From: Candidatus Zixiibacteriota bacterium
GTDB lineage: Bacteria > Zixibacteria > MSB-5A5 > GN15 > JACZUZ01
Reading direction: 5' to 3'
NCBI GenBank assembly: GCA_024280775.1
Contig: JAJRPM010000015.1
Span: 145,721 to 209,720, forward strand
Length of the DNA stretch: 64,000 nucleotides
Shown: in pieces, positions 16,500-56,842 of the stretch
How positions within the stretch are numbered: position 1 is the first letter of the stretch
How the letters are laid out: each line of letters opens with the position of its first letter
Program-made: the position numbers and the translations under genes
Notes under the pieces: model-generated
The model's input: the letters and a program-made list of their open reading frames with translations, nothing else
The model's database searches: none
What the model was told of the DNA's origin: nothing

Positions 16500-18935
16500 T
16501 CAACTTCCTGTTGTACCACAAATCGGCGCTGGACCGCCATTGAATATTCTCGCTATCATGTAAGTCACATCGGCAATGTTGATAGTGTTGTCTCCATTTG
16601 CATCTGCTGCGTCATCACATGGCGGCGCTATGCCGGCGTTGAATATCCGTGCAATCAAGAACGTTACGTCCCCGATATTGAATGTTCCACTGCCATCGGC
16701 GTCACCGGCTACTAAACAGCACCCTGCAACCTTGACAACTGGCGCGAGATAGGCGGGAACGATAGAGCCGTGCAATGTCTCTTCTGCCAGAACTCCGCCG
16801 AAAGATACGGTGTTCAAGGGCATTGAATTGCCAGAGACACTTCCGGGGAGAATTTCAAAGCGCACAGCTACTACGGCTCCAGCTCCCGGTTGGAGATGTG
16901 GTGAAGTTCCTACAGTGTTACTACTACGCAGGACAATCAATATTTTCTTACCGAATGGGTCCTCACTTGGCACTTCCTGCACTTCGAATTGCGAGGCGCG
17001 GAGGCCGGTTGTGGTAATACCGATATACTTCAACTTAACGCCGTTCAATTCATCGTAGGTTAGCGGGATATTTAGTGACTTGACCTGGAAGTCGTTGGTA
17101 AGCGCAAATGGCACATCAACGGTGTCACCTATGTTACCTTCGGCGGTGTCACCGCCGAGTGTGTCGGCGTGCACAAAGACTAAATGTTTCGCCTGCTCGA
17201 ATCCGTCTCCATTGGGGTCGGTGGCAGTGAGAGTCACATCATAGATACCTACGGAGTTGTAGGTGTTGGTGGGATTCTGCATTGAGGAAACATTTCCATC
17301 ACCAAAGGTCCAGCTCCATGCGGTTGGTGAATTGGGTGATGTGTCGGTGAAATCAACTACCAATCCGGGAGCGCCTGAAAGAGTTGGCCCGGCGGTGAAA
17401 TTTGCTATAGGCAGGTTTTGGATGGCGTTAAACGGATTGACTCGTCCGGAACCTAATTGACCGATAAAAGTTGGGTTTTGAACGTCGATATTGTCGGCTG
17501 TTGCTAAGAGGATAGAATCAATTTCTACTTTGGTCCAACCGGGCATCAGTGACTTGATTAGCAGAACAGCTCCACAGTATGCGGGCGCGGCCATTGAGGT
17601 TCCACTCAGGTTGGCATAGGTGGGTGTGAAAACACTTGAGAATGTAGATTGAATTGAACTTCCCGGGGCTGAAATTTCCACCCATGATCCGAAATTCGAA
17701 AAGCCGGATCTGGTGTCACCGCCATCTGTTGAGGCTACAGTTATTACATCAGGTCGTAACCCGAGGAAATCGGGAGAGTCTGCATTGTCATTTCCGGCGG
17801 CATTTGAGATTACCAGCCCACTGTCGTTTGCAAGATCAAGAGCCAGAGCCAGAGAGCTAAGCGCCGAGCTTCCCCAGGAAGTGTTGACTACATCCGCTCC
17901 CATACGCGCGGCATAGTCGATTGCCGTGGCCGCATTTGAGAGGTTAATGAATCCGTTACCATCGGGAGCGGTTGCTCCAATACGCAGGCACATGATACGC
18001 GGTCCGCGTGTGGCATAGTTTGCTCCGGCGTTCCATCCACCAGCGATTCCGGCAACGCCTAGTCCGTTGTTGGTCGCTGCGGCGGCTATTCCTGCTACGT
18101 GTGTTCCGTGGCCGTTGTGGTCATTGGGATCCGGATCAGGAGTTCCGGGGTCTTCTCCGGCCATTACTCCTCCGCCTAACCCGGTGAAGAAGTCGTAACC
18201 GATAAGATCATCGACAACACCGTTGCCATCATCATCGATACCATTTAGGTCATCAAGGTCAAATACTTCTCCGTCACCGTCGAGGTCCTCCCCTGGATTC
18301 ACCCATATTTTGTCAACAAGGTCCTCGTGACGATAGTTAACGCCGGAGTCGGTTAGAGCAATTTTTGCGGTATCAGACCCAGGCTCTACATCCCAAACAT
18401 CTGTGGCTTGGATTTTTGCAGGAGCATATTGCAGGTTCCAGCGCGGATCATCAGGGATTACCTGAGAACCTAGCAAGGGCATGGCCCAGATTTTTTCGGC
18501 GGAGACTACTTTTCCAGTAGCCATGAGGTCATTGATTAGAATATCCAAATCCACACTCTCAGAGAACTGCATGAGTTGGAATTTGCTCATGGTTCTATCA
18601 ATTGCTTTTGCAGATAGCTCATCGCGCCAAGGGAATACCGCGCGGACCTCTGATATTTGATAGTTGCTTAGTACGGCGTCAACTGCGGGAGCTCCAAAAC
18701 TAACTCTTCCGAATGACTTTACTTTTGAACCTACGGTTACGTCATCGGTAAACCTAACTTCTAGTTGGCCTTTGATAATGAACGGCTTCGGCTGGGGAGC
18801 GTTTTCTTTGTAAACCGCGTAGCTGGAGAGAGGTAACGCCAGCGCTACGCCTATAGTCATCGTCAATGCAACGCCCAATCGAAACTTGACGCCTCTTATC
18901 ATTCTCTTCCCATTTAACATCTTGCTAGATCCCAT
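16500..18935 (-). CDS. Secreted subtilisin-like protease with PKD, cohesin-like and dockerin-like modules
   Basis: An 811-residue protein with a signal peptide near residues 15-40. A propeptide-like region (about 45-150) precedes the S8 catalytic domain. The triad is visible: Asp in IALTDSGVNYRHEDL, His in NGHGTHVAG and Ser in LSGTSMAAP. A Ca-binding-looking insertion (DLDGDGEVFDLDD) sits after the Asp. A PKD domain (about 512-595, WSWTFGDG) and a cohesin-like beta domain (about 600-735) follow. The last 75 residues have two dockerin-type Ca loops (DADGSGTFNIGD and DANGDNTINIAD) bracketed by cysteines and end CGTTGS. It probably digests external protein while tethered at the cell surface. It is related to the subtilase at 48349-50772. 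AAGGTG precedes the ATG. Confidence 0.9.
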   Translation of the reverse strand: MGSSKMLNGKRMIRGVKFRLGVALTMTIGVALALPLSSYAVYKENAPQPKPFIIKGQLEVRFTDDVTVGSKVKSFGRVSFGAPAVDAVLSNYQISEVRAVFPWRDELSAKAIDRTMSKFQLMQFSESVDLDILINDLMATGKVVSAEKIWAMPLLGSQVIPDDPRWNLQYAPAKIQATDVWDVEPGSDTAKIALTDSGVNYRHEDLVDKIWVNPGEDLDGDGEVFDLDDLNGIDDDGNGVVDDLIGYDFFTGLGGGVMAGEDPGTPDPDPNDHNGHGTHVAGIAAAATNNGLGVAGIAGGWNAGANYATRGPRIMCLRIGATAPDGNGFINLSNAATAIDYAARMGADVVNTSWGSSALSSLALALDLANDSGLVISNAAGNDNADSPDFLGLRPDVITVASTDGGDTRSGFSNFGSWVEISAPGSSIQSTFSSVFTPTYANLSGTSMAAPAYCGAVLLIKSLMPGWTKVEIDSILLATADNIDVQNPTFIGQLGSGRVNPFNAIQNLPIANFTAGPTLSGAPGLVVDFTDTSPNSPTAWSWTFGDGNVSSMQNPTNTYNSVGIYDVTLTATDPNGDGFEQAKHLVFVHADTLGGDTAEGNIGDTVDVPFALTNDFQVKSLNIPLTYDELNGVKLKYIGITTTGLRASQFEVQEVPSEDPFGKKILIVLRSSNTVGTSPHLQPGAGAVVAVRFEILPGSVSGNSMPLNTVSFGGVLAEETLHGSIVPAYLAPVVKVAGCCLVAGDADGSGTFNIGDVTFLIARIFNAGIAPPCDDAADANGDNTINIADVTYMIARIFNGGPAPICGTTGS

Positions 18936-22326: not shown

Positions 22327-24180
22327 ATGAAGTCTTTAGCGCCGAAATTGTCCGCAGTATTATTTCCACTGGTTCTTTTTGTATCAGGTGTCTTTTTTCC
22401 TGTCCGGGTGGTTGCGTCAGTGATCAATGTACCGGCGGATGTCAGTACAGTCCAAGGGGGAATTGACCTGGCCTTGACAGGTGATACTGTTTTGGTCGCT
22501 CCCGGGACATATCTTGAGAATCTGGTATTTCCGTCAACTCAATTTGTTTTGCTGGGCGATGGCGCTCCCTCCGATGTGATTCTAACTCCTTTAGATGTTG
22601 ATAGCATGATTATTGTCCTCACCAACGGTAATCCACCGGGGACGGTTATTGAGAATTTCACTTTGAAAGGTTGTCTTACAAATGCTATTTGGATTCCGTC
22701 GGGCAACCTGCGAATTGCAAATTGCATTTTTAAGAACAACGCGGGGCCTTTCGCCGGAGGCAATTGGGGAGTCGTGTCAATTAAGAATGACGCCAGTGTG
22801 ATTGTCACCGGATGTCTTTTCTACAACAATCGTAATATGTGTGTTTCATTCAATGGCGGAAAAGGGACCATTCTTAACAACACTATGGACGGGAATGTTG
22901 GAGGCGTGGGAGTTTCCGCTAGCGACAGTGTTACGATAATCAATAATATCTTTACAAACGCCACCGAGGTTTTTCCGGGAGTTGGCGGCTGGGGTATCGT
23001 CGGCGTGGGGAATCTTAATCCGGCGGTGGACTACAATAACATCTTCAATAATGTAATCGACTACGGACTGGGGTTCTCGCCGGGGGCTAACGATTTGATG
23101 TTGGACCCACTTTATGCGCATCCGGCGCTTGGTGATTTTTCTTTGTTACCCAATTCTCCCTGTATTGACGCTGGTGATCCGGATACAACTCTGAACGATG
23201 CAGATGGCTCTCGTAGTAATATGGGCGCGTTTTCGCCTTGCGATACTACACTTGATTCGGACTCGGATGGCGTTTTGGATTGTTTTGATAATTGTCCCTA
23301 TACCTCCAACGCTAGTCAGTTGGATAGTGACGGGGATGGTATTGGTGATGACTGTGATGTTTGCCCGAGTGATACCAGCAATGACATTGATGGCGATTTG
23401 ATATGCGGGGCGTTGGATAACTGCCTGAACGTTGCTAATCCCCTTCAGGAGGACCCTGATGCCGACGGGCTTGGTTCCGCTTGCGATAATTGCCCCGATG
23501 ACTTCAATGATTCGCAATTGGATTCTGATTTGGATGGTGTGGGGGATGTTTGTGATAATTGTCCCTCTGACTCAAATTCTGCGCAAGTTGACAGCGATTC
23601 GGACGGTATTGGTGACGCTTGTGATTTTGATGCGGACAATGACGGGATTCCGGATTCTACTGACAATTGTCTGATGGCATCCAATCCGGATCAGGCTGAT
23701 ATTGATGGTGATGGCGCAGGTGATGTGTGTGACCCCTGCCCGCTGGATGCCGGTGACGATAGCGATAGCGACGGACATTGTGATTCGGACGATAATTGTC
23801 CCTCGATTGCTAATGCAAGCCAGACAGATGTAGACGGAGATGGTGTTGGAGACTTATGTGATAATTGCGCCGGCGATGCTAATCCTTTGCAGGAAGACAC
23901 CGATAGTGACGGTGTTGGAGATGTTTGTGACGCCTGCCCTGAGTATCCGTTTGAATGTTGCTGCACTGTTGCGGGGGATTATGATGATGATGGTCTTTTT
24001 AACATAGCGGATGTTACTTCAGGGATAGCGCGGATATTTGCCGGAGGAGCGCCGCCGGCTTGCGGTGATGAGTCCGATACTGACGGTAATAATACCTTCA
24101 ACATCGCTGATGTTACTTACGGAATTGCTCGCATCTTTGCAGGCGGGGCGGCGCCGGTTTGCGGGACTACGGGGTTGTAA
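22327..24180 (+). CDS. Secreted beta-helix / thrombospondin-3 / dockerin-like protein
   Basis: A 617-residue secreted protein. After a signal peptide (about 1-30) comes a pectin-lyase-type right-handed beta-helix (about 33-310) that opens with INVPADVSTVQGGIDLA and DTVLVAPGTYLENLVF. Residues about 310-540 are acidic thrombospondin type-3 repeats with D-D-DG-D...C patterns that bind many Ca2+ ions. The last 70 residues are two dockerin-type loops (DYDDDGLFNIAD and DTDGNNTFNIAD) between cysteines, ending CGTTGL. It is probably a cell-surface or matrix carbohydrate-associated protein; catalysis is not evident. It forms a tandem paralogue pair with the next gene. Confidence 0.88.
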   Translation: MKSLAPKLSAVLFPLVLFVSGVFFPVRVVASVINVPADVSTVQGGIDLALTGDTVLVAPGTYLENLVFPSTQFVLLGDGAPSDVILTPLDVDSMIIVLTNGNPPGTVIENFTLKGCLTNAIWIPSGNLRIANCIFKNNAGPFAGGNWGVVSIKNDASVIVTGCLFYNNRNMCVSFNGGKGTILNNTMDGNVGGVGVSASDSVTIINNIFTNATEVFPGVGGWGIVGVGNLNPAVDYNNIFNNVIDYGLGFSPGANDLMLDPLYAHPALGDFSLLPNSPCIDAGDPDTTLNDADGSRSNMGAFSPCDTTLDSDSDGVLDCFDNCPYTSNASQLDSDGDGIGDDCDVCPSDTSNDIDGDLICGALDNCLNVANPLQEDPDADGLGSACDNCPDDFNDSQLDSDLDGVGDVCDNCPSDSNSAQVDSDSDGIGDACDFDADNDGIPDSTDNCLMASNPDQADIDGDGAGDVCDPCPLDAGDDSDSDGHCDSDDNCPSIANASQTDVDGDGVGDLCDNCAGDANPLQEDTDSDGVGDVCDACPEYPFECCCTVAGDYDDDGLFNIADVTSGIARIFAGGAPPACGDESDTDGNNTFNIADVTYGIARIFAGGAAPVCGTTGL

Positions 24181-24434: not shown

Positions 24435-26312
24435 ATGTCAAACCTCACCCCTTTCAAGTTTTTTAAGCTAACTGTTTACAGTATATCATCTACGCTCATC
24501 CTCCTGGCTTCAAGCTCCCTTGCTTCCACCATCAACGTTCCCGGCGATCAAGCTACAATTCAAGCGGCTATTGATATTTCGGTGGATGGCGATACAGTTT
24601 TGGTGGCGCCGGGGACCTATGTTGAAGGTATTGATTTCATTGGGAAAAATATAGTTGTGACCTCATCTGGAGGTAGAGATTCAACTATACTCACGACCAT
24701 CTCCCAGCCAACAGTCTCCTTTGTCAATGGCGAGGATACAACCGCTGTCATATCAGGATTCACAATCCAAAACCAATCCACAATCGGTATATTCTGTGAA
24801 GGGTCAACCCCTCGCATTGAATTCAATGACATCAGTTTCTGCCTCAACCATCTAAATGATGGTGGAGGGGTGTGGTGTATAAACTCCGGGGCAAAAATTC
24901 GTAGTAACCTAATTCATGACAACTCTTCTAAAATCACTTCAGCGGGCGTGGGCGGCCAAGGTTCCAATTTGGAGACCTTAGAAATAGTAGGCAATGAAAT
25001 CTACAGCAATTACGCTGTCAACGGTCCTGCTATTGGCTTCATCGCAGGAACTTCAAACATACTCATTGAGCGAAACATTATTCGTGATAACCTTGGTGGC
25101 ATCACTCAAGTGGGCGGCTTATATATTAACGGAACAAACTGCAAAATATACAATAACACGATTGTCAGAAACCCGAAGGGTATAACGCTGGCAAATGGGG
25201 CGGGGATTGACATTAGAAACAATATCGTCGCTTTCTCCAATGGTATAGGTATGCAAGTTTGGCTGGCGACTGTAGATTATAACAACGTATTTGGTAATAA
25301 CGTATTGGGTGGTAGCAGTGGGAATACCACCGGCCCGAACGGATTTTCGCGCAATCCTCTCTTCGTTGACGCCGAGAATAATGACTTTCACCTTCAACTC
25401 ACTTCGCCTTGTGTTGATTCCGGTGACCCTGCTACTCGATTCACTGATATAGGTGGAACACGAAACGACATTGGCGCCCTGTTTTTTTGTGATTCAGGAG
25501 CAGACACTGACGGAGATGGGATTCTGGATTGTCAGGATAACTGTAGAGACGAATCGAATCCATCGCAGGCTGACACAGACGGTGACGGTATCGGAGATTT
25601 GTGTGACGCTTGCCTAAATGACGCTTTTAACGATATTGATGGCGATGGGATTTGCGGAGACTTGGACAGCTACCCGAATGATTTCGACAATGACGGAATT
25701 CCTGTCGAGAACGATAATTGCCCGGCAACGTTCAACCCTGACCAGACAGACACTGATGGTGACGGAGTGGGAGACGTATGCGATGATGATGATGACAATG
25801 ACGGGATTCCCGACGTATCGGATAACTGTCCGTTGACGTTTAACCCGACTCAGCAGGACACAGATAATGATGGACTCGGCGATGTTTGTGATGACTGTCC
25901 GTTGGATGACAACAACGATATTGACGGTGACGGACTTTGCGCTGAGGTTGACAACTGCCCCTCGGTGGCAAACCCAGATCAATTAGATAGCGACGGTGAC
26001 TTCAAAGGTGATGCATGTGATAACTGTATTGATATATACAACCCCTTCCAGGCTGATACCGACGGCGATGGCTACGGCAATGCTTGCGATTGTTGCACTA
26101 TAGCCGGTGACTTCAATGGCGATAGCCAATTCAATGTTGCAGATATCACAGCTGGTATTGCACGAATCTTCTCTGGCGGTCCGGCCCCGGCTTGTCAGGA
26201 TGCGGCGGATTCGAACGGGGATAACTCGTTTGGCATTGCAGATATTACACTAGATATAGCTCGCATCTTCTCAAGCGGCGCTGAGCCGGTTTGTGGGACT
26301 ACTGGGTTGTAG
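24435..26312 (+). CDS. Secreted beta-helix / thrombospondin-3 / dockerin-like protein, paralogue
   Basis: A 625-residue protein with the same layout as its upstream neighbour: signal peptide, beta-helix opening INVPGDQATIQAAIDIS, Asp-rich thrombospondin-3 repeats (about 350-550) with Cys-paired Ca loops, and a dockerin-like tail (DFNGDSQFNVAD and DSNGDNSFGIAD) ending CGTTGL. GGAGG lies eleven bases before the ATG. The 254-bp spacer between the two paralogues holds no gene. The pair arose by duplication and has diverged mainly in the helix part. Confidence 0.88.
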   Translation: MSNLTPFKFFKLTVYSISSTLILLASSSLASTINVPGDQATIQAAIDISVDGDTVLVAPGTYVEGIDFIGKNIVVTSSGGRDSTILTTISQPTVSFVNGEDTTAVISGFTIQNQSTIGIFCEGSTPRIEFNDISFCLNHLNDGGGVWCINSGAKIRSNLIHDNSSKITSAGVGGQGSNLETLEIVGNEIYSNYAVNGPAIGFIAGTSNILIERNIIRDNLGGITQVGGLYINGTNCKIYNNTIVRNPKGITLANGAGIDIRNNIVAFSNGIGMQVWLATVDYNNVFGNNVLGGSSGNTTGPNGFSRNPLFVDAENNDFHLQLTSPCVDSGDPATRFTDIGGTRNDIGALFFCDSGADTDGDGILDCQDNCRDESNPSQADTDGDGIGDLCDACLNDAFNDIDGDGICGDLDSYPNDFDNDGIPVENDNCPATFNPDQTDTDGDGVGDVCDDDDDNDGIPDVSDNCPLTFNPTQQDTDNDGLGDVCDDCPLDDNNDIDGDGLCAEVDNCPSVANPDQLDSDGDFKGDACDNCIDIYNPFQADTDGDGYGNACDCCTIAGDFNGDSQFNVADITAGIARIFSGGPAPACQDAADSNGDNSFGIADITLDIARIFSSGAEPVCGTTGL

Positions 26313-36821: not shown

Positions 36822-36884
36822 GAAAACGGTTATTGGCAATAAATGAGAAAGAAACCCACCTGAAAGGTGGGCCACCCTGCCGAT
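36822..36884. repeat. 63-bp direct repeat, copy A
   Basis: It matches copy B (37510-37572) at 57 of 63 positions. It contains the small palindrome CCCACC-tgaaa-GGTGGG. Confidence 0.85.
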
Positions 36885-37391
36885 GCTTTAATGCTTGCTG
36901 GGAATTCGGCCACCTTCCCCCCACCCGGGATTATCAATGCTGACCAATGCGGTGTTTATAGATGGAGCTTGGTTGCGGTTACCCCAACTCCGACTGGTGT
37001 GATTACAGTAGATTCGTTGACTGGCGCGGTCACTTTTGATTCTGACAGGAGTGATGGCTTTGGGGGAATGGATACGCCCTATGACATCGTCATCGAAGTT
37101 ACTGATGGAATCTCACAAAAGGCCTGCACATTCGTTGTAGACTTTTTCGGTGTGGCAGACGCTTGCTGTGTCGTTGCTGGTGACGTTGACAATAGCGGTA
37201 GTATGAATATCGCGGATGTGTCATTTATGATAGACCGAATATTCAACGGCGGTCCGGCTCCGGTGTGTTGTGGCTCTGCTGATTTGAATCTTGATAATTC
37301 TTTGAATATAGGTGATGTGACATTTTTGATTGCCAGGATTTTCTCAGGTGGGCCTGCGCCGCAATGTGGGATGGCGTTTAGTTGTAATTGA
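36867..37391 (+). pseudogene. Truncated gene for a dockerin-like secreted protein
   Basis: The frame begins inside repeat copy A and has no signal peptide. Right after the repeat it enters the middle of an Ig/cadherin-like beta domain (CGVYRWSLVAV, then GVITVDSLTGAVTF and YDIVIEVTDG), followed by the Cys-bracketed dockerin-like tail (DVDNSGSMNIAD and DLNLDNSLNIGD) ending CGMAFSCN. Full-length relatives in the window all have a secretion signal and a large N-terminal part. This is best read as the 3' end of a secreted protein gene separated from its front by repeat-linked rearrangement. The coding frame is otherwise intact. Confidence 0.75.
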
Positions 37392-48348: not shown

Positions 48349-50772
48349 ATGCCCATTCTCAGTAAGCAAAGAATCAAATCTACTCTCAGAACTACTTCGT
48401 TTTTCGGCTTAGCTATAGCTATCTTCGCGTTTGGTGTGAGCGCTACCAACACTGCGAGTAATTCATCGAGAATGCGTCCTCTTCCGGTTAAGCCATCAGC
48501 TACGCGAATCTCTCCTCGCGCAAAAATCAAGAATGTGGTTATCAAATTCGCGGATGGCAGCGTTGTTCGTCAGCCTTTGGGACGTGGTAAGTCAACCGCC
48601 GGAGCGCGTTTGGTGTCACTGTCTGGCTCTTCGCTTGTATCGGTTGAGCCGATTTTGGATAAGTATATTTCTGATGGTAAAGTAGCGCCTTTGTTATCTG
48701 TGAATCCGGTTGAGCTGGACGCGCGACAGGCAAGACTTGAAAAGAAGTCCGGATTGAAGCTACCTGATTTGGCTAATTATTATTCGGTTGCTGTCAGTTC
48801 ACCGTCTGAGGCGGAACAACTTATCGACGAGCTCAACAAGTTGGATATTGTAGAGATTGCCTACGCTGAGCCTGAGGCTGAGCCGGCGGTTCTTTCAGCC
48901 TTGATGTTAGCCGCGGCGCCAAGCTTTGACGCTCAGCAAACATATTTGCGCGCCGCTCCTGATGGAGTTGACGCGGATTTTGCCTCTACTGTCCCCGGTG
49001 GTGACGGGAGTGGAGTTAAGGTAGTTGATGTTGAAGGGGGTTGGCGAACAACACATGAAGAGCTGGCATCAAACGCTCCATTTCTTCAGGTAGGCGGGCA
49101 ATTCGGCACACTTAGCTGGAGGAATCACGGCACGGCGGTAATTGGTGAGATTTTGGGCGATGATGACGGCTCAGGTATTAAGGGGATTTCTCCTGGTGTG
49201 CAATGGGGCTATTCTTCTATAGCCTCCCAGTCCACCGCTAGCGCCTTGCTGGTTGCCGGTCAGAACCTGGATCCGGGTGATGTGATTCTGATAGAGCTTC
49301 ACGCGCCGGGACCACATTTCGCTTTTGAGTCTCGTGACGACCAGCTTGGATATGTTTGTATGGAATACTGGCAGGCGAATTTCGATGTTATTCAACAGCT
49401 TTTCCTTGATGGCATAGTTGTTTGCCAGGCCGCAGGCAATGGCGCCGAGAACTTTGGTGATCTATCTATTTATGGGTCACTTTTCGACACAACATTTCGT
49501 AATTCACACGCAATAATGTGCGGGGCCGGAGCTCCTCCGAGCGGGCTATCAGGGCCAGATCGCACTCGTTTGGGGTTCTCGAATTATGGTGAGCGAGTGA
49601 ATTTGCAGGGATATGGTCGTGGAGTGGCTACTATCGGCTATGGCGATATGTTCAGCGGTGGGCCTGAGGACACTTGGTATACAGGGACTTTCTCAGGCAC
49701 GTCATCGGCCTCTCCGATTATTACAGGATCAGTTGCGGCATTGCAGGGGGCTCACAAAAATGCCTTTGGTTTCCCGATGAACTCTGATGAAATACGCACT
49801 TTGCTGAATTCTACCGGGTCGCCGCAAACTGGGAACACCGGCCAGCATATCGGGCCGAGACCGGATTTGCAGGCGGCATTCAATCAGATATTGGGAGTGG
49901 CTTTTACCGCCGATACGACAATCGGTGTGGCCCCGCTGGACGTTCAATTCTCGGGAGTTTCTAATAAGACTGTTACTCAATGGATGTGGAATTTTGGGGA
50001 CGGTGATAGCTCACTGACGCAGTCCCCTGTTCATACCTATCCCTTAGGTGGGATTTATGATGTTTCGCTGGCCATTGAGTCTGTCGAGGGTTCGTTTTCT
50101 ACCTCAAGAGCGCAATTCGTGGTGGCCTTGGCTGATACTTTGAGCGGCATTGATACCGTCGGCGCGGCAGGCGGCACAGTTCGTGTTGATTTGTATGCTC
50201 ATAATGTTCTACCGGTGTTTCAGGTCAAGATACCGGTGGAGTGGTCAGGGCCGTTGAATTTGGATTTGGTTTCTGAGAGTGTTAGTGGATTGCGAAGCTC
50301 ACAGATGAATCTTTCGCAAATATCCATTAACCCCTTTAACTCACAGGCCACCTATACGTTAACAGCTCCAAACTCAGGCACAAGTTCATACCTGCAACCC
50401 GGCTCGGGGCCGATATTGAGTTTGTTTTTTGATATTCCAGTAGGCGTCTCCCCGGTTTCGAATACTATCGCATTTGATGGTTTTTTCTCAGAACAACCGA
50501 CTTTCGTAACAGATCTCATCACTTTTCGTCCTGAGATTGCCAATGCTACCGTCTCTCTTTGTTTGCAGGCCGGTGACGCTGATGGTGATGGTTCTATAAA
50601 CATAGCAGACGTAACTTTCTTAATCGCAATGATATTCTCCAGTGGGCCATTGCCAAGTCCCCTCACGCTGGGTGATGCGAATTGCGATACGAGTGTGAAT
50701 ATTGCGGATGTAACGTTTCTTATCAATATGATTTTCAATAGCGGCCCACAGCCCTGCGAGTGTGCGCTGTAG
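48349..50772 (+). CDS. Secreted subtilisin-like protease with PKD, cohesin-like and dockerin-like modules, second copy
   Basis: An 807-residue paralogue of the protease at 16500-18935. A signal peptide (about 14-36) is followed by a propeptide (about 60-190) and the S8 domain with Asp in VKVVDVEGGW, His in SWRNHGTAVIG and Ser in FSGTSSASP. The region around the His lacks the usual G before it (NHGTAV rather than GHGTHV), so the fold is divergent. A PKD domain (WMWNFGDGDSS), a cohesin-like domain and a dockerin-like tail (DADGDGSINIAD and DANCDTSVNIAD) ending PCECAL follow. AGGAA lies near the ATG. Confidence 0.88.
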   Translation: MPILSKQRIKSTLRTTSFFGLAIAIFAFGVSATNTASNSSRMRPLPVKPSATRISPRAKIKNVVIKFADGSVVRQPLGRGKSTAGARLVSLSGSSLVSVEPILDKYISDGKVAPLLSVNPVELDARQARLEKKSGLKLPDLANYYSVAVSSPSEAEQLIDELNKLDIVEIAYAEPEAEPAVLSALMLAAAPSFDAQQTYLRAAPDGVDADFASTVPGGDGSGVKVVDVEGGWRTTHEELASNAPFLQVGGQFGTLSWRNHGTAVIGEILGDDDGSGIKGISPGVQWGYSSIASQSTASALLVAGQNLDPGDVILIELHAPGPHFAFESRDDQLGYVCMEYWQANFDVIQQLFLDGIVVCQAAGNGAENFGDLSIYGSLFDTTFRNSHAIMCGAGAPPSGLSGPDRTRLGFSNYGERVNLQGYGRGVATIGYGDMFSGGPEDTWYTGTFSGTSSASPIITGSVAALQGAHKNAFGFPMNSDEIRTLLNSTGSPQTGNTGQHIGPRPDLQAAFNQILGVAFTADTTIGVAPLDVQFSGVSNKTVTQWMWNFGDGDSSLTQSPVHTYPLGGIYDVSLAIESVEGSFSTSRAQFVVALADTLSGIDTVGAAGGTVRVDLYAHNVLPVFQVKIPVEWSGPLNLDLVSESVSGLRSSQMNLSQISINPFNSQATYTLTAPNSGTSSYLQPGSGPILSLFFDIPVGVSPVSNTIAFDGFFSEQPTFVTDLITFRPEIANATVSLCLQAGDADGDGSINIADVTFLIAMIFSSGPLPSPLTLGDANCDTSVNIADVTFLINMIFNSGPQPCECAL

Positions 50773-51128: not shown

Positions 51129-53984
51129 ATGTTGCCAGGAAATTTCAGAAAGATTGCCCGACTCCGCCTGCTCCCTAGCGGGAATTGCACTCCAACATTG
51201 CGCAAGTTTCATAAGATCATTGTCGCGGCTCTATTGTCTTTGGTTGGACTTGGTTCGTCATTTGATATCGCTTTGGCTCGCACTTTGTATGAGCCAGGTA
51301 CGATGCAGAACGATTTTGCTTATCGTATCACAGTAGAGGAGCGTCCATTTATTACGCTAGCGGTTCATAATGTAGGGAAGATTGCCTTGACGGTAACCAA
51401 TCAGGGCACATTTGGAAACGGTTTCATTGGAAACGCGACAGATCCAGTATCCGGCATGGCAGCTCCTTCTTGTGAATTCCCCAAGAACTCAAGTATTGAC
51501 TATTTGTTTGCCGCATCATTTTGGTTGGGTGGTGTTGTCGGTAGAGACACATTGGTTTCCACTGGAGCTGACGGCTGGGCAAATCCGGGCGCTGAATTGA
51601 ACCCCGCTAGCTTGAGCCAGCAACAAGCCTCTGGTGACACTCTGAAAATCAGAACAATAAGTGACCCTGAAAGCGCAGAGTTTGACCTGGCGCTCTCGCA
51701 ACAGGACGTCATCATGTCCTATGCGGACACTTTGACAGAGGGTGTGGTTCAGGATGTCAATGATGGTCGTCCGCATATTCCGCTGGGAATTAACATCAAG
51801 CAATCCACTTACTCCTGGAGCTATTCTTATGCCGAGGACTTCGTGCTCTTCGACTATAGAATTACGAATATCGGTAACCGTAAGCTTGAGAAATTCTATA
51901 TGGGTTTCTATGTCGATGGTGATGTTGGTCACTTGAGCACACGAAGCACAGATGGATTCTCTGATGATATTTGCGGTTTCAAGCTGGATGTTGACCAATT
52001 GGAGTTCAGCAATTCAAAATGTAAATTTACAGACACAATTAGAATTGCCTGGATTGCTGATAATGACGGAAACAACACTGCCGGCACGGCGCCTGAAACC
52101 AAAAAGTTCTTTGACGCAGCGCTTGACCCGACCGGAGTCACGGGAATGCGAGTTGTTCGCACTCCCTCGGATTCGTTGAAGTTTTCGTTCAACTGGTGGA
52201 TTTCTAATGTCACCGCCACTCAGGATTTTGGCCCACGACTAGCCGGCACCAAAGATGACCCCTTCCGCGATTTTGGAGGGTTCCTGGGAACACCAGAAGG
52301 CGACAAGAACAAGTATTACATTATGAGTCATGAAGAGTTTGACTATGACCAGCTCTTTTCAGCTATCGACCATACGCCGAAATGGCTTCCGCCAGGTGAC
52401 CCGACATTCGCAGATGGATTCGACACCAGGTACCTGCTTTCTTTCGGGCCATTCGAAATCTTCCAGGGTGAGACCCTGCCATTGACTTTTGCATATGTTG
52501 CGGGTGATAAGTTCCACCGTGATCCTCAGGACTTTGCCGGATTTGACGCACAGCGCCCTGAGCTATATAACGACAAGCTGGACTTTAGAGATTTCGGCGT
52601 TAACGCTCAATGGGCGGCGTGGATTTATGACAACCCGGGAGTTGACACTGACGGCGATGGGTTCCGTGGTAATTTTAGACTTTGTGTGGAAGATTCATCA
52701 ATGTTTGACACAGTTTTTGATACCGTTTACGCAATTGACACGACAGTTATATTCCCTCCTGATTCGTTTATAGTAGACACGATGATAGATTCGCTTATAC
52801 CGCGCATTCAGTTCCGGGAAGTCGATACTATTTTCTATGTAGGCGACGGTGTCCCTGATTTTCGTGGGGCAAGTCCTCCGCCTGCACCCAAAGTGCGCTT
52901 AGAGACATCAACGGGTAAACTTATTGTTCGCTGGAACGGTCTGCGTTCTGAGACTACACCTGATCCGTTTAGTGATGTGGTAGATTTTGAGGGTTATCGC
53001 GTTTACATGGGTCTAGACAATCGCGCAACTGACATGGTTCTTCAGTCTTCTTATGATAAGAAGAATTTCACGAGATACTACTTCGACACAAAACTCGAAG
53101 ACCCATCTACTGGACTGGAAGGCCTATGGGTAATTGCCGGTCCTCCGCAGACTTTGCAAGAGATTCGATTCTTGTACGCGAACAACAATCAGGAATACCA
53201 GCCGCTGGTTAACTCTATAGCCCGGCCTTTACAATTTTTGGATTCTTTGTTCTACTTTACCAAACAGGATTTCAATAGAGATGACCTTACTGACTCTCTT
53301 GAGATTCACAAACCTGAGAAGTACCGCAATGAGCCGTATCCTCATACACTGTTCATTGAAGAAGCATTCACCAACGATACTTTCCTTGTCGACCCTGACA
53401 CAGGTGATTCAACGCATTATATCGGCGGTGAGCTAACTGAAGACGGCAAGTACTTCAAGCACTTTGAGTATGAGTATACTTTGGATAACCTTCTTTCTTC
53501 CCAACGTTACTTTGTTTCGGTCACCACTTTCGACTTCGGAGCTCCTGAGTCTGGTCTTGACGCTTTAGAAACCAGCCCGCTCTTTAACGCTGTTGCCGAG
53601 TTCCCATTACCGCAAACAGATGAGATTGTAGCGAATGAGTTAGGTGTTTCTGTCTTCCCTAATCCATACAGGATAAACGGAAACTATCGTGAGGATGGTT
53701 TTGAGGGTCGCGGCAGAGGTGTCAGTGAGTTTCCAAATGAACGAGTGCGGGCGGTCAACTTTATTAACCTGCCTCCGGTCTGCAAGATTCGTATTTTCAG
53801 TCTTGATGGCGACTTGGTTCGTGAGATTATTCATAATACTGTAGCAAATTCACCGGGTAGTATGTTTGACAAGTGGGATCTTGTGACACGAAATATTGCC
53901 ACTGCCGTTAGTGGAATCTACTACTGGACAGTTGAGGAACCAGACGGCAAAGTACAAATGGGTAAGCTGGTTCTGATTATGTAA
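51129..53984 (+). CDS. Large secreted protein with C-terminal FlgD-like/sorting-type Ig domain
   Basis: A 951-residue secreted protein with a late signal peptide (hydrophobic core about 35-55, ending ALA). The body is a series of beta-rich domains with no catalytic motif that I recognise; a Ca-loop-like DTDGDGFRGN lies near residue 505. The last 110 residues form an Ig-like domain of the FlgD/type-9-sorting kind: VFPNPYRINGNYREDG, INLPPVCKIRIFSLDGDLVREI, DLVTRN, AVSGIYYW and a final GKLVLIM. It pairs in tandem with a paralogue that follows a terminator. It is likely a surface or sorting-signal-bearing structural protein. Confidence 0.75.
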   Translation: MLPGNFRKIARLRLLPSGNCTPTLRKFHKIIVAALLSLVGLGSSFDIALARTLYEPGTMQNDFAYRITVEERPFITLAVHNVGKIALTVTNQGTFGNGFIGNATDPVSGMAAPSCEFPKNSSIDYLFAASFWLGGVVGRDTLVSTGADGWANPGAELNPASLSQQQASGDTLKIRTISDPESAEFDLALSQQDVIMSYADTLTEGVVQDVNDGRPHIPLGINIKQSTYSWSYSYAEDFVLFDYRITNIGNRKLEKFYMGFYVDGDVGHLSTRSTDGFSDDICGFKLDVDQLEFSNSKCKFTDTIRIAWIADNDGNNTAGTAPETKKFFDAALDPTGVTGMRVVRTPSDSLKFSFNWWISNVTATQDFGPRLAGTKDDPFRDFGGFLGTPEGDKNKYYIMSHEEFDYDQLFSAIDHTPKWLPPGDPTFADGFDTRYLLSFGPFEIFQGETLPLTFAYVAGDKFHRDPQDFAGFDAQRPELYNDKLDFRDFGVNAQWAAWIYDNPGVDTDGDGFRGNFRLCVEDSSMFDTVFDTVYAIDTTVIFPPDSFIVDTMIDSLIPRIQFREVDTIFYVGDGVPDFRGASPPPAPKVRLETSTGKLIVRWNGLRSETTPDPFSDVVDFEGYRVYMGLDNRATDMVLQSSYDKKNFTRYYFDTKLEDPSTGLEGLWVIAGPPQTLQEIRFLYANNNQEYQPLVNSIARPLQFLDSLFYFTKQDFNRDDLTDSLEIHKPEKYRNEPYPHTLFIEEAFTNDTFLVDPDTGDSTHYIGGELTEDGKYFKHFEYEYTLDNLLSSQRYFVSVTTFDFGAPESGLDALETSPLFNAVAEFPLPQTDEIVANELGVSVFPNPYRINGNYREDGFEGRGRGVSEFPNERVRAVNFINLPPVCKIRIFSLDGDLVREIIHNTVANSPGSMFDKWDLVTRNIATAVSGIYYWTVEEPDGKVQMGKLVLIM

Positions 53985-54042: not shown

Positions 54043-54081
54043 AAAAAGCCCCCGCTTGCGTCAATTCGCCGGGGGCTTTTT
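54043..54081 (+). terminator. Rho-independent terminator of the 951-residue protein gene
   Basis: GCCCCCG (54048-54054) pairs with CGGGGGC (54070-54076), extended by A and T runs on both sides; TTTTT follows. An apparent start for the next gene inside this hairpin is therefore rejected. Confidence 0.88.
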
Positions 54082-54169
54082 GAGAGAACGAACAATTGGT
54101 GATGAGATAGCCGAATTGATAGAAAATACCTTCAGAAGACAATTCCATAGAAACTCTTATAGTCTCGGA

Positions 54170-56842
54170 ATGACGATTAGCCGTCTTGCGCTATGCTTGG
54201 GCTTGGTAATGCAGGTAGCGGTGGGCTATGATGTCTCGCAAGCAAAGCCATATGGTGAACGCCGCGTTGACCTACCAGATCACAAACCGGCGCCCGGCGA
54301 GATTTGGAATCGGATGGGATTGAGCTTTCGCTCTACTATCGATGATCAGCCCAATACTGAAGTCGCGACACATAATATAGGACAACTTCAAGTCGGACAA
54401 ACCAATCTCGGCCAATTTGGCAACGGTTTTGTCGGAGTTACGCCGGACCCTATAACCGGTGAAGCTCTTCCCTCTGCGACTTTTCCAGCTAACAGCGGCT
54501 TGAACCACCTCTACCTCGGCGCCTTGTGGATTGGAGCCGTTGTTGGTCGTGATACGCTGGTTTCATCCGGCGCTGACGATGGATTCGTGGTGCATGAATT
54601 CTGGCCGGGCGCTCACGATGTTATTGAGCATCGTTCAATTATTCCAGGCGATCAGTTTGAATCTGACAAGGCTCTTTCAGAGCAAGACTTGATTGCCACG
54701 TACTATGACACATTAGATGCGGTAAGTCAGACATCCCAGGACAACATTGACAATAGGCCACATATCCCTCTTCAGCTAAAAATTGTAGAGCGAACTTTGC
54801 AATGGAGCTATGACTACGCCGGCGACTTTGTGCTCTTTGATTACAGCATTACCAACATTGGCCGTCGACGTCTTGACAATGTGTTTATGGGAATCTATGT
54901 CGATGGTGATATTCATCATTTATCAAAGCAAGGTATCGCGGCTTACGGTGATGACATTTGCGGCTTCAAAGAGACTCGGCCGGCTGAGTGTGACTTCGTT
55001 GACACAATCAATATGGCATACATCATGGACAATGACGGTGATCCGGAAAATAACGCCTGGGATAACACTACCTCTATTCGCTCGGTTGCAGGAGTACGAC
55101 TGATACGCACGCCTTCGGACTCGCTTGAGTATTCTTTCAACTGGTGGAGCGCCGCCCCGGGGCCGGACTTCGGACCGCGACGTAAAGGAACGACAGAGAA
55201 GCCATTTAGAAACATGAATGATATTCTGGGCGCTCCTCTTGGTGACCGCAATAAGTATTTTATGCTTAGCAATGGTGAATTTGATTACGACCAGCTATTC
55301 ACTGCGGTAGATCATTCTGCCGATGGCTGGCTCCCACCTCCTAACGAAGCAACCTCGTTGGCCCAAGGCGGCGATCCGAAATTCATGCTCTCGTTCGGTC
55401 CCTTTCAGGTATTCCCAGGTGAAACTCTACCTATAACTTTCGCTTATATCGCCGGACGTGATTTTCATACTAACGCTACTGATTTTGACCAGCTCATGAA
55501 GCCTAACCCCTTCCAGCCGGAGTTTTACGCTAAGACACTGAATTTTTCGGACATGGGTTTGAACTCGAATTGGGCTGGCTGGATATACGACAATCCGGGA
55601 ATAGACACTGACGGCGACGGGTATTTCGGAAAGTCACGGATTTGCGTGTTTGAAGACACTACTGTCATTGAGACGCTACAAGTCATTGACAGTACACTTA
55701 CTCCTCCGGAGACAACCACTGTTATCGACACTGTACAAGTTGCGCTTTTGGCTGACACTACGTTCTACGAGGGTGACGGTGTACCTGATTTCCGTGGAGC
55801 GGCGCCTCCTCCATCTCCTAATCTTCGCGTCTTACCGGAACTTGGTAAGCTCACAGTTAGATGGAATGGTTTTGCCTCTGAAAACACTGCTGATCCATTT
55901 AGTGGGGATATTGATTTTGAAGGATATCGAGTCTATACCGCGCGCACTAGAGAGACATCGCAATTCGCAGTTGTCACGTCATATGATATTGAGGACTACA
56001 ATCGTTTCGAGCTAAACGAGATTACCGGTTTCTTTGAGCTGATTGCAAACCCCTTTACTTTGGAAGAGCTTAAGGGGCTGTACGGTCAGTTCTTTAATCC
56101 GCTGGACTTCGGGATAGATAATCCTTTCCAGGTTACAGACAATGGCACAGGTGAAATGAAAACCTTTTACTTCGCCGCTCAGGACTGGAATCAGGACGAA
56201 CTTTTGGGAGCCTACGACTTCCCGCGTCCGGGATATATACGCAAGAGATTTGACGTTCCCAGGCCCAGCAAGAACCCCAATGACTGGCTACCCAGTGACA
56301 CTACCGACGACGGATTTCTTAAGTATTACGAGTATGAAATAATCCTTGACAACCTACTTCCTTCAGTCCCGGTTTATGTATCAGTGACGGCGTTCGACTT
56401 TGGATCTCCTGAATCGGGGCTCTCCAGTCTTGAATCAAGTCCTCTTTCAAATGCGGTTCAAGAGTTCCCGCTTGTTACCGCGGCGGAGGCGAAAGCGCAG
56501 AAGCTGGAAGTGATTGCCTACCCGAATCCTTATCGTAGTGACGGGAATTACCGTGCAGATGGCTTTGAGGGCCTTGAAGATGAAGATCTCCCCGATGAGA
56601 GAGTTCATGCTATCAATTTCATCAACCTCCCCCCTGTTTGTGACATTCACATCTACTCACTCGATGGAGACTTGGTTCGCACGGTACAGCACAACTTCCC
56701 GCAAGGCGGTCCCCGGTCGATGCATGACAAGTGGGACTTGATTACCAGGAACACTCAGTTAGCTGTCAGTGGGATTTACTATTTTGTAATTGAAACACCT
56801 GACGGCGCTACTCAAATCGGCAAATTGGCTTTGATTTTCTGA
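54170..56842 (+). CDS. Large secreted protein with C-terminal FlgD-like/sorting-type Ig domain, paralogue
   Basis: An 890-residue protein with a clean signal peptide from the ATG at 54170 (MTISRLALCLGLVMQVAVGY). It parallels its upstream neighbour along the whole length: the GQFGNGFVGVTPDPITGE region, the LYLGALWIGAVVGRDTLVSSGADDG region, the DTDGDGYFGKSRICV segment, SGDIDFEGYRVY and the C-terminal YPNPYRSDGNYRADGFEG...AVSGIYYFVIE...GKLALIF domain. A longer start at 54056 begins within the terminator of the previous gene and is rejected. The pair arose by duplication. Function not known. Confidence 0.78.
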   Translation: MTISRLALCLGLVMQVAVGYDVSQAKPYGERRVDLPDHKPAPGEIWNRMGLSFRSTIDDQPNTEVATHNIGQLQVGQTNLGQFGNGFVGVTPDPITGEALPSATFPANSGLNHLYLGALWIGAVVGRDTLVSSGADDGFVVHEFWPGAHDVIEHRSIIPGDQFESDKALSEQDLIATYYDTLDAVSQTSQDNIDNRPHIPLQLKIVERTLQWSYDYAGDFVLFDYSITNIGRRRLDNVFMGIYVDGDIHHLSKQGIAAYGDDICGFKETRPAECDFVDTINMAYIMDNDGDPENNAWDNTTSIRSVAGVRLIRTPSDSLEYSFNWWSAAPGPDFGPRRKGTTEKPFRNMNDILGAPLGDRNKYFMLSNGEFDYDQLFTAVDHSADGWLPPPNEATSLAQGGDPKFMLSFGPFQVFPGETLPITFAYIAGRDFHTNATDFDQLMKPNPFQPEFYAKTLNFSDMGLNSNWAGWIYDNPGIDTDGDGYFGKSRICVFEDTTVIETLQVIDSTLTPPETTTVIDTVQVALLADTTFYEGDGVPDFRGAAPPPSPNLRVLPELGKLTVRWNGFASENTADPFSGDIDFEGYRVYTARTRETSQFAVVTSYDIEDYNRFELNEITGFFELIANPFTLEELKGLYGQFFNPLDFGIDNPFQVTDNGTGEMKTFYFAAQDWNQDELLGAYDFPRPGYIRKRFDVPRPSKNPNDWLPSDTTDDGFLKYYEYEIILDNLLPSVPVYVSVTAFDFGSPESGLSSLESSPLSNAVQEFPLVTAAEAKAQKLEVIAYPNPYRSDGNYRADGFEGLEDEDLPDERVHAINFINLPPVCDIHIYSLDGDLVRTVQHNFPQGGPRSMHDKWDLITRNTQLAVSGIYYFVIETPDGATQIGKLALIF

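Follow-up and report, generated by a model that had tools for sequence, protein, structure and literature searches.

The enzymes NagJ and NagH of Clostridium perfringens are secreted and are joined directly through a cohesin and a dockerin, without a scaffoldin. Non-cellulosomal cohesin-dockerin systems have already been proposed in Cloacimonadota, Planctomycetes and ANME archaea: a putative cellulosome-like complex was inferred from genomes of Ca. Stygibacter (Cloacimonadota) (PMC8542988), the planctosome of freshwater Planctomycetes was put forward as non-cellulosomal cohesin-dockerin machinery for peptide degradation (PMC6461901), and non-cellulosomal dockerin/cohesin proteins are described for ANME archaea (PMC9012536). 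In the dockerins of Clostridium thermocellum the cohesin is contacted by residues 11 and 12 of both loops and there are two binding modes, and in ordinary dockerins a non-covalent clasp joins head and tail of the domain (PMC4728124). A literature search covering few subscription papers returned nothing relevant on dockerins of Zixiibacteriota (Zixibacteria). Here we analysed a window of 64,000 nucleotides (C1:145721-209720 of the genome, numbered below from its first letter) from a 3.17-Mb Zixiibacteriota genome of 17 contigs. We propose, with a probability of about 0.72, that ~70 proteins of this genome that share a dockerin-like tail would dock, in a calcium-dependent manner, into cohesins carried by T9SS-anchored and by tailed proteins, presumably at the cell surface.

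The original prediction held that five loci of the window (Table 1) end in two dockerin-type calcium loops, mostly with cysteines before, between and after them, and often finish in PxCGTTG[LS]. The two loops are indeed present at the C-terminal end of all five, whose tails are 55-63% identical to the first over ~76 aa of alignment, and the CC/C/C arrangement occurs in four (16500, 22327, 24435 and 36867); the tail at 48349 departs from it, lacking the middle Cys and carrying DANC and PCEC. The ending fared less evenly, as CGTTG[LS] closes three of the five tails. In a scan of the window proteins by themselves, Pfam Dockerin_1 exceeds its cut-off only at 36867 and 48349, stays just under it in one further protein and misses two. 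Locus 36867 has a GTG start and no in-frame signal peptide, nor is there one upstream in any frame; it is likely to be what truncation or recombination has left of a larger gene, and its cadherin-like repeat portion resembles the T9SS cohesin proteins described below. Candidatus Zixiibacteriota MAGs hold the closest named relatives of the tails, and among them close relatives of both window subtilases, L113 (73% identical over cohesin and tail) and L166. Directly after subtilase 2 lie two tandem paralogues of ~930-950 aa (51129-53984 and 54056-56842), the first of which weakly matches the T9SS type at its C-terminus (TIGR04183 E=0.06).

Table 1 Tailed loci of the window (window positions) and cohesin ORFs with a T9SS C-terminal domain (CTD) in the genome (contig:position)
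Feature	Position	Strand	Evidence
Subtilase 1, secreted, 811 aa: signal segment, Peptidase_S8, PKD, cohesin, four-Cys dockerin tail	16500..18935	-	ORF; Pfam S8 E=2.3e-41, PKD_4 1.5e-13
Subtilase 1, predicted cohesin domain	16731..17177	-	AF2 pLDDT 88; PDB fold search; profile match
Subtilase 1, four-Cys dockerin tail, CC...C...CGTTGS	16503..16733	-	Alignment, profile; AF2 pLDDT 91.6, PDB dockerin matches
Tailed, secreted beta-helix protein containing thrombospondin type 3 repeats	22327..24180	+	Pfam Beta_helix 2e-10, TSP_3 2.2e-30
Four-Cys dockerin tail of 22327 locus, CCC...C...CGTTGL	23950..24177	+	Profile match, C1:169670-169897
Another tailed beta-helix/NosD-like protein, containing TSP3 repeats	24435..26312	+	Pfam TSP_3 3.9e-26, NosD 1.1e-4
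Four-Cys dockerin tail of 24435 locus	26085..26309	+	Profile match, C1:171805-172029
Probable 5'-truncated remnant: partial cadherin-like repeat and tail, no signal peptide	36867..37391	+	
Four-Cys dockerin tail of 36867 locus, with extra Cys	37152..37382	+	Pfam Dockerin_1 24.4 bits; profile match
Subtilase 2, secreted, 807 aa: Peptidase_S8, PKD, cohesin, class-B dockerin tail	48349..50772	+	Pfam S8 9.7e-11, PKD_4 3e-11, Dockerin_1 29 bits
Subtilase 2, predicted cohesin domain	50119..50559	+	Profile matches; alignment with modelled subtilase 1 domain
Subtilase 2, class-B dockerin tail, C...DANC...PCEC, no middle Cys	50548..50769	+	Profile match, ORF reading
Cohesin + T9SS CTD ORFs, C16 and C15	C16:201-206 k, C15:281-284 k, C15:285-287 k, C15:253-255 k		
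Cohesin + T9SS CTD ORF broken by in-frame stop	C15:255-258 k		
Cohesin + T9SS CTD ORFs, C10, C1 and C11	C10:152-155 k, C1:58-59 k, C11:16-22 k		
Cohesin + T9SS CTD ORFs, C7 and C5	C7:175-185 k, C7:441 k, C5:49 k, C5:257-260 k		

By predicted fold the tail is a type-I-like dockerin, and its sequence resembles that of one. An AF2 model of the tail alone, built from an alignment of 62 rows (A6), reached pLDDT 91.6 and pTM 0.81 with helices at 20-32, 40-43 and 53-65; it contains the two F-hand calcium loops and connecting helices of the type I dockerin fold, and a PDB fold search with this model returned dockerins at all of ranks 1-33, with TM up to 0.84 on the target. The NagJ-NagH complex (PDB 2ozn) is among these matches, though weak and at rank 31. 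A sequence profile of the tail also matches C. thermocellum dockerins in the PDB (E=1e-4), which in the alignments shown have no cysteine within the stretch aligned to the tail, and Pfam dockerin PF00404 exceeds its cut-off at ~40 places in the genome.

A profile made from the five window tails matched the genome at 76 places, with E < 1e-6 at 75, and the sharing of the tail is thus not due to chance. Reading the ORFs and removing one duplicate gave 74 tails in 72 ORFs, whose consensus is roughly CC-x(2)-[PA]GDANNDGSFNIADVTFLIARIFSGGPAPxCxDEADANGDNSFNIADVTYxIARIFSGGPAPxCGTTG. The tail stops at most 3 residues from the C-terminus in 65 of 74 copies and 5 residues from it in one, and the remaining eight lie 105-699 residues before it, some of them near the N-terminus of the ORF. 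A crude test detected a strong hydrophobic N-terminal segment in 69 of the 72 ORFs; one of the three others is cut by a region boundary and one is a 74-aa fragment. The Pfam domains of these ORFs include FG-GAP (10), TSP3 (8), PKD (8) and subtilase (6), more rarely BNR (3), beta-helix (3), M43 (2) and M12B-type peptidases (2), and M14, CHRD and Spondin_N once each; there is no glycoside hydrolase or cellulose-binding module among the 25 commonest Pfam families of the 72 proteins.

The complete CC...C...C set is found in 50 of the 74 tails and partial sets are few, with CC and the middle C co-occurring at Fisher p=8e-12 when paralogues are counted as independent. A second tail class, 48349 included, instead has one C inside loop two, as DANC, and another in a PC at the C-terminus. 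Outside this genome, named relatives show the four-cysteine bracket in 77 of their 102 tails, and most of the best tails in the phylum's other families have it too. Two disulfides among the four cysteines probably turn the N-to-C clasp of ordinary dockerins into a covalent one. At positions 11-12 the tails of this genome have mostly Ile-Ala, in both loops. Position 12 takes the values Ala, Leu, Gly, Ser, Thr, Arg and Asn across lineages, and in 25 of 29 phylum loci both loops have the same residue there, where 6.4 are expected from shuffling between loci, the largest excess among the 28 positions tested. Matching contact residues in both loops fit dockerin binding in two orientations, and the sequences suggest that the tail may be capable of dual binding; homogenisation of the two repeats within a lineage could also have caused the match. 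By the residues at position 17, a helix position present in both loops (profile columns 26 and 59), the 74 tails divide into Gly/Gly and Leu(Met)/Leu classes. We do not claim these as specificity classes: the repeat-to-repeat covariation is real, but paralogue relatedness is still contained in it. Subtilase 1 and its close relative L113 fall into different position-17 classes, so tails may be exchanged between genes.

The cohesin-like region noted before the tail of both subtilases proved to be real, and it is a cohesin by predicted fold. Pfam Cohesin (PF00963) scores 15.7 bits in subtilase 1 (cut-off 24.1) and gives no match in subtilase 2. For subtilase 1, cohesin and tail were modelled together with AF2 from alignment A3 with 17 rows, giving pLDDT 88 and pTM 0.71. 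Of the PDB fold matches listed, 50 of 50 are cohesins, with TM on the target reaching 0.81; one of them is 2xdh, the archaeal, non-cellulosomal cohesin of Archaeoglobus fulgidus. We call the subtilase regions cohesins despite the Pfam shortfall because the fold result outweighs the score threshold; an iterated profile also ties them to an ORF at C1:58 k that is itself over the Pfam cut-off. Across the genome, Pfam Cohesin marks 15 places (seven over cut-off), the A2 profile of the two subtilase cohesins 12 and the family profile A7 23. The genome's cohesins come to ~30, which is fewer than its tails, and the T9SS-anchored ones are diverse; both facts count against docking. About 13 tail ORFs have a cohesin of their own, placed directly before the tail in nine ORFs and likewise in 15 relatives, and none was detected in ~59 of the 72. 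Pfam and the profiles revealed no tandem cohesin scaffoldin in the genome, where an ORF has at most two cohesins.

The genome encodes T9SS components, among them SprA and a PorU sortase (665 bits), and has 53 matches to the T9SS CTD (TIGR04183), with 47 proteins over cut-off. A comparison of the coordinates of genome-wide tail and CTD matches found no tail ORF with a T9SS CTD, and we reject the idea that the tail is itself such a CTD. Nearly all cohesin ORFs close with a tail or with a T9SS CTD; about a dozen have a type A CTD by the TIGR04183 test, and the minimal ones, at C7:441 k and C5:49 k, consist of signal peptide, one cohesin and CTD, with lengths of 308 and 332 aa. On C16 a tail ORF stands 235 bases after a cohesin-CTD gene on the same strand, and on C15 two cohesin-CTD genes are preceded by a tail gene at 0.7 kb. 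In the broken C15 copy (L054:6382-9081, C15:255381-258080) one in-frame stop splits the cohesin domain, leaving 472 + 427 aa, and the neighbouring paralogues of this gene are intact. Some T9SS-anchored cohesin proteins (L052, C15:281-290 k; L079, C7:175-185 k) carry a different dockerin-like repeat after the cohesin, RGDxNLNG...EIADA ... NxDG...TVADLVxLIRVxxGD, so other partners or a second specificity may exist, a further point against docking. The exceptions with neither tail nor CTD are small secreted cohesin proteins at C10:46 k and C1:351 k. In this genome and in others of the phylum, some small secreted proteins (L246, L261 and L268) have cohesin as their only domain and a charged C-terminus rich in Lys; they possibly represent a third kind of socket.

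Among 119 genomes of the phylum, 114 have tails at E of at most 1e-5, most of these with at least 20 copies where scoring stopped at about 48 per genome, and 108 have Pfam cohesins. Four of the eleven genomes without a Pfam cohesin are also tail-less; the seven that have tails (G052, G079, G117, G073, G074, G092 and G115) are all cohesin-positive with A7, and we rejected Pfam alone as too insensitive a test of cohesin presence. No A7-family cohesin was found in the five tail-less genomes; in one of them, G087, Pfam marks two cohesins and a single dockerin match, an observation that counts against docking. By either method, cohesins are present in 114 of 114 genomes with tails and in 1 of 5 without (Fisher p=6e-7, phylogeny ignored), and the independent evidence is smaller than this value implies because the five tail-less genomes represent two families only. 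SprA is present in all five. Because T9SS is kept in tail-less genomes, the tail tracks cohesin and not T9SS as such, and T9SS was rejected as the determinant of tail presence.

In the proposed arrangement, tailed proteins and T9SS cohesin proteins would both exit the cytoplasm by Sec, after which the latter would cross via T9SS and be fixed to the surface by PorU sortase, a function established for T9SS elsewhere. The sockets would be cohesins, single or paired, on proteins with a T9SS C-terminal domain, and the cargo would be the ~70 exported proteins, comprising subtilases, other peptidases, FG-GAP and BNR propellers, beta-helices and TSP3/PKD proteins. Their dockerin tails, presumably braced by cysteines in place of the clasp, would plug into exposed cohesins in a putative calcium-dependent interaction. 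About a dozen tailed proteins with their own single cohesin could accept a further partner, and since some dockerin proteins carry a cohesin themselves, chains or hubs could form. The idea of a self-contained cohesin-dockerin system unlike the cellulosome has gained from the predicted dockerin and cohesin folds, the additional cohesins, a plausible T9SS-cohesin anchor and co-occurrence in the phylum; with both folds predicted, it would work like a cohesin-dockerin system, its binding step being putative, and it is unlike the classical cellulosome because no multi-cohesin scaffoldin was found in the genome. Counting against docking is that no route by which the tail proteins cross the outer membrane is visible. 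T9SS-anchored cohesin proteins might themselves act as carriers, binding tailed proteins in the periplasm and taking them, already folded, across by way of the type IX translocon, which we regard as a long shot; if true, the tail would be an indirect export ticket for ~70 proteins without an export signal beyond Sec.

Several features of the tail could also be read without a docking partner in trans. The defined end at the C-terminus in most copies, the N-terminal hydrophobic segment in nearly all tail ORFs and the mutual exclusion of tails and T9SS CTDs would suit a C-terminal sorting or export signal for a secretion machine, perhaps removed. The tail is not merely such a terminal signal, however, because of the eight internal copies; its predicted fold is that of a dockerin and its presence in the phylum follows cohesins rather than T9SS, and we consider a sorting role unlikely. 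The tail might instead pair mainly in cis with the adjoining cohesin of its own chain as a stabilising cap, in keeping with the cohesins found directly before it in the window subtilases, elsewhere in the genome and in relatives, yet this cannot be its general use because most tail ORFs have no detected cohesin, and we judge it very improbable as the main role. About equally improbable is a partnerless, calcium-binding and disulfide-stabilised end cap: calcium loops and coupled cysteines are what such a cap would have, but the helices are near-identical in ~70 otherwise unrelated proteins, contact position 12 varies between lineages yet is equal in both loops, and tails co-occur with cohesins.

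Docking of the tails into cohesins, the reading we prefer, points to surface display across most of an uncultured phylum, with many small T9SS-anchored sockets in place of a large scaffoldin and a dockerin that is probably covalently braced. If true, it would account for the arrangement of proteases and adhesion proteins on the cell. Protein engineering would gain a new, stable plug and its socket, and there would be defined parts with which to test how cargo gets past the outer membrane.

The classical type I cellulosome (C. thermocellum CipA) resembles the Zixiibacteriota system in both folds, the two F-hand loops and the pseudo-symmetric contact residues. The latter differs in having no multi-cohesin scaffoldin, cargo made up mostly of peptidases and adhesion-type repeats, and a tail with a cysteine bracket and Ile-Ala rather than Ser-Thr at positions 11-12. 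NagJ-NagH is from a Gram-positive bacterium, with another dockerin context and no T9SS anchor. The proteins of ANME archaea and A. fulgidus are likewise non-cellulosomal, with cohesin and dockerin sometimes on one protein, but have an S-layer or membrane context and other cargo. The planctosome shares an adaptor with both modules as well as TSP3 and HYR domains (PMC6461901); its anchor is a lamin-tail protein, whereas that of Zixiibacteriota would be T9SS CTD proteins, on a larger scale. Ca. Stygibacter also has dockerin-tailed peptidases (S8 and C25 there) and a cohesin protein with a C-terminal surface-attachment domain (PMC8542988). Its scaffoldin is a single protein of 3,755 aa that combines tandem cohesins with CBMs, whereas in Zixiibacteriota there are 1-2 cohesins per protein with no tandem array, and ~70 tails; cysteine bracketing may be a further difference. 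As far as could be checked, what is new here relative to these systems is the four-cysteine dockerin, the number of its copies and how far it extends within the phylum, sockets distributed over T9SS-anchored proteins in place of a tandem scaffoldin, and the test of co-occurrence.
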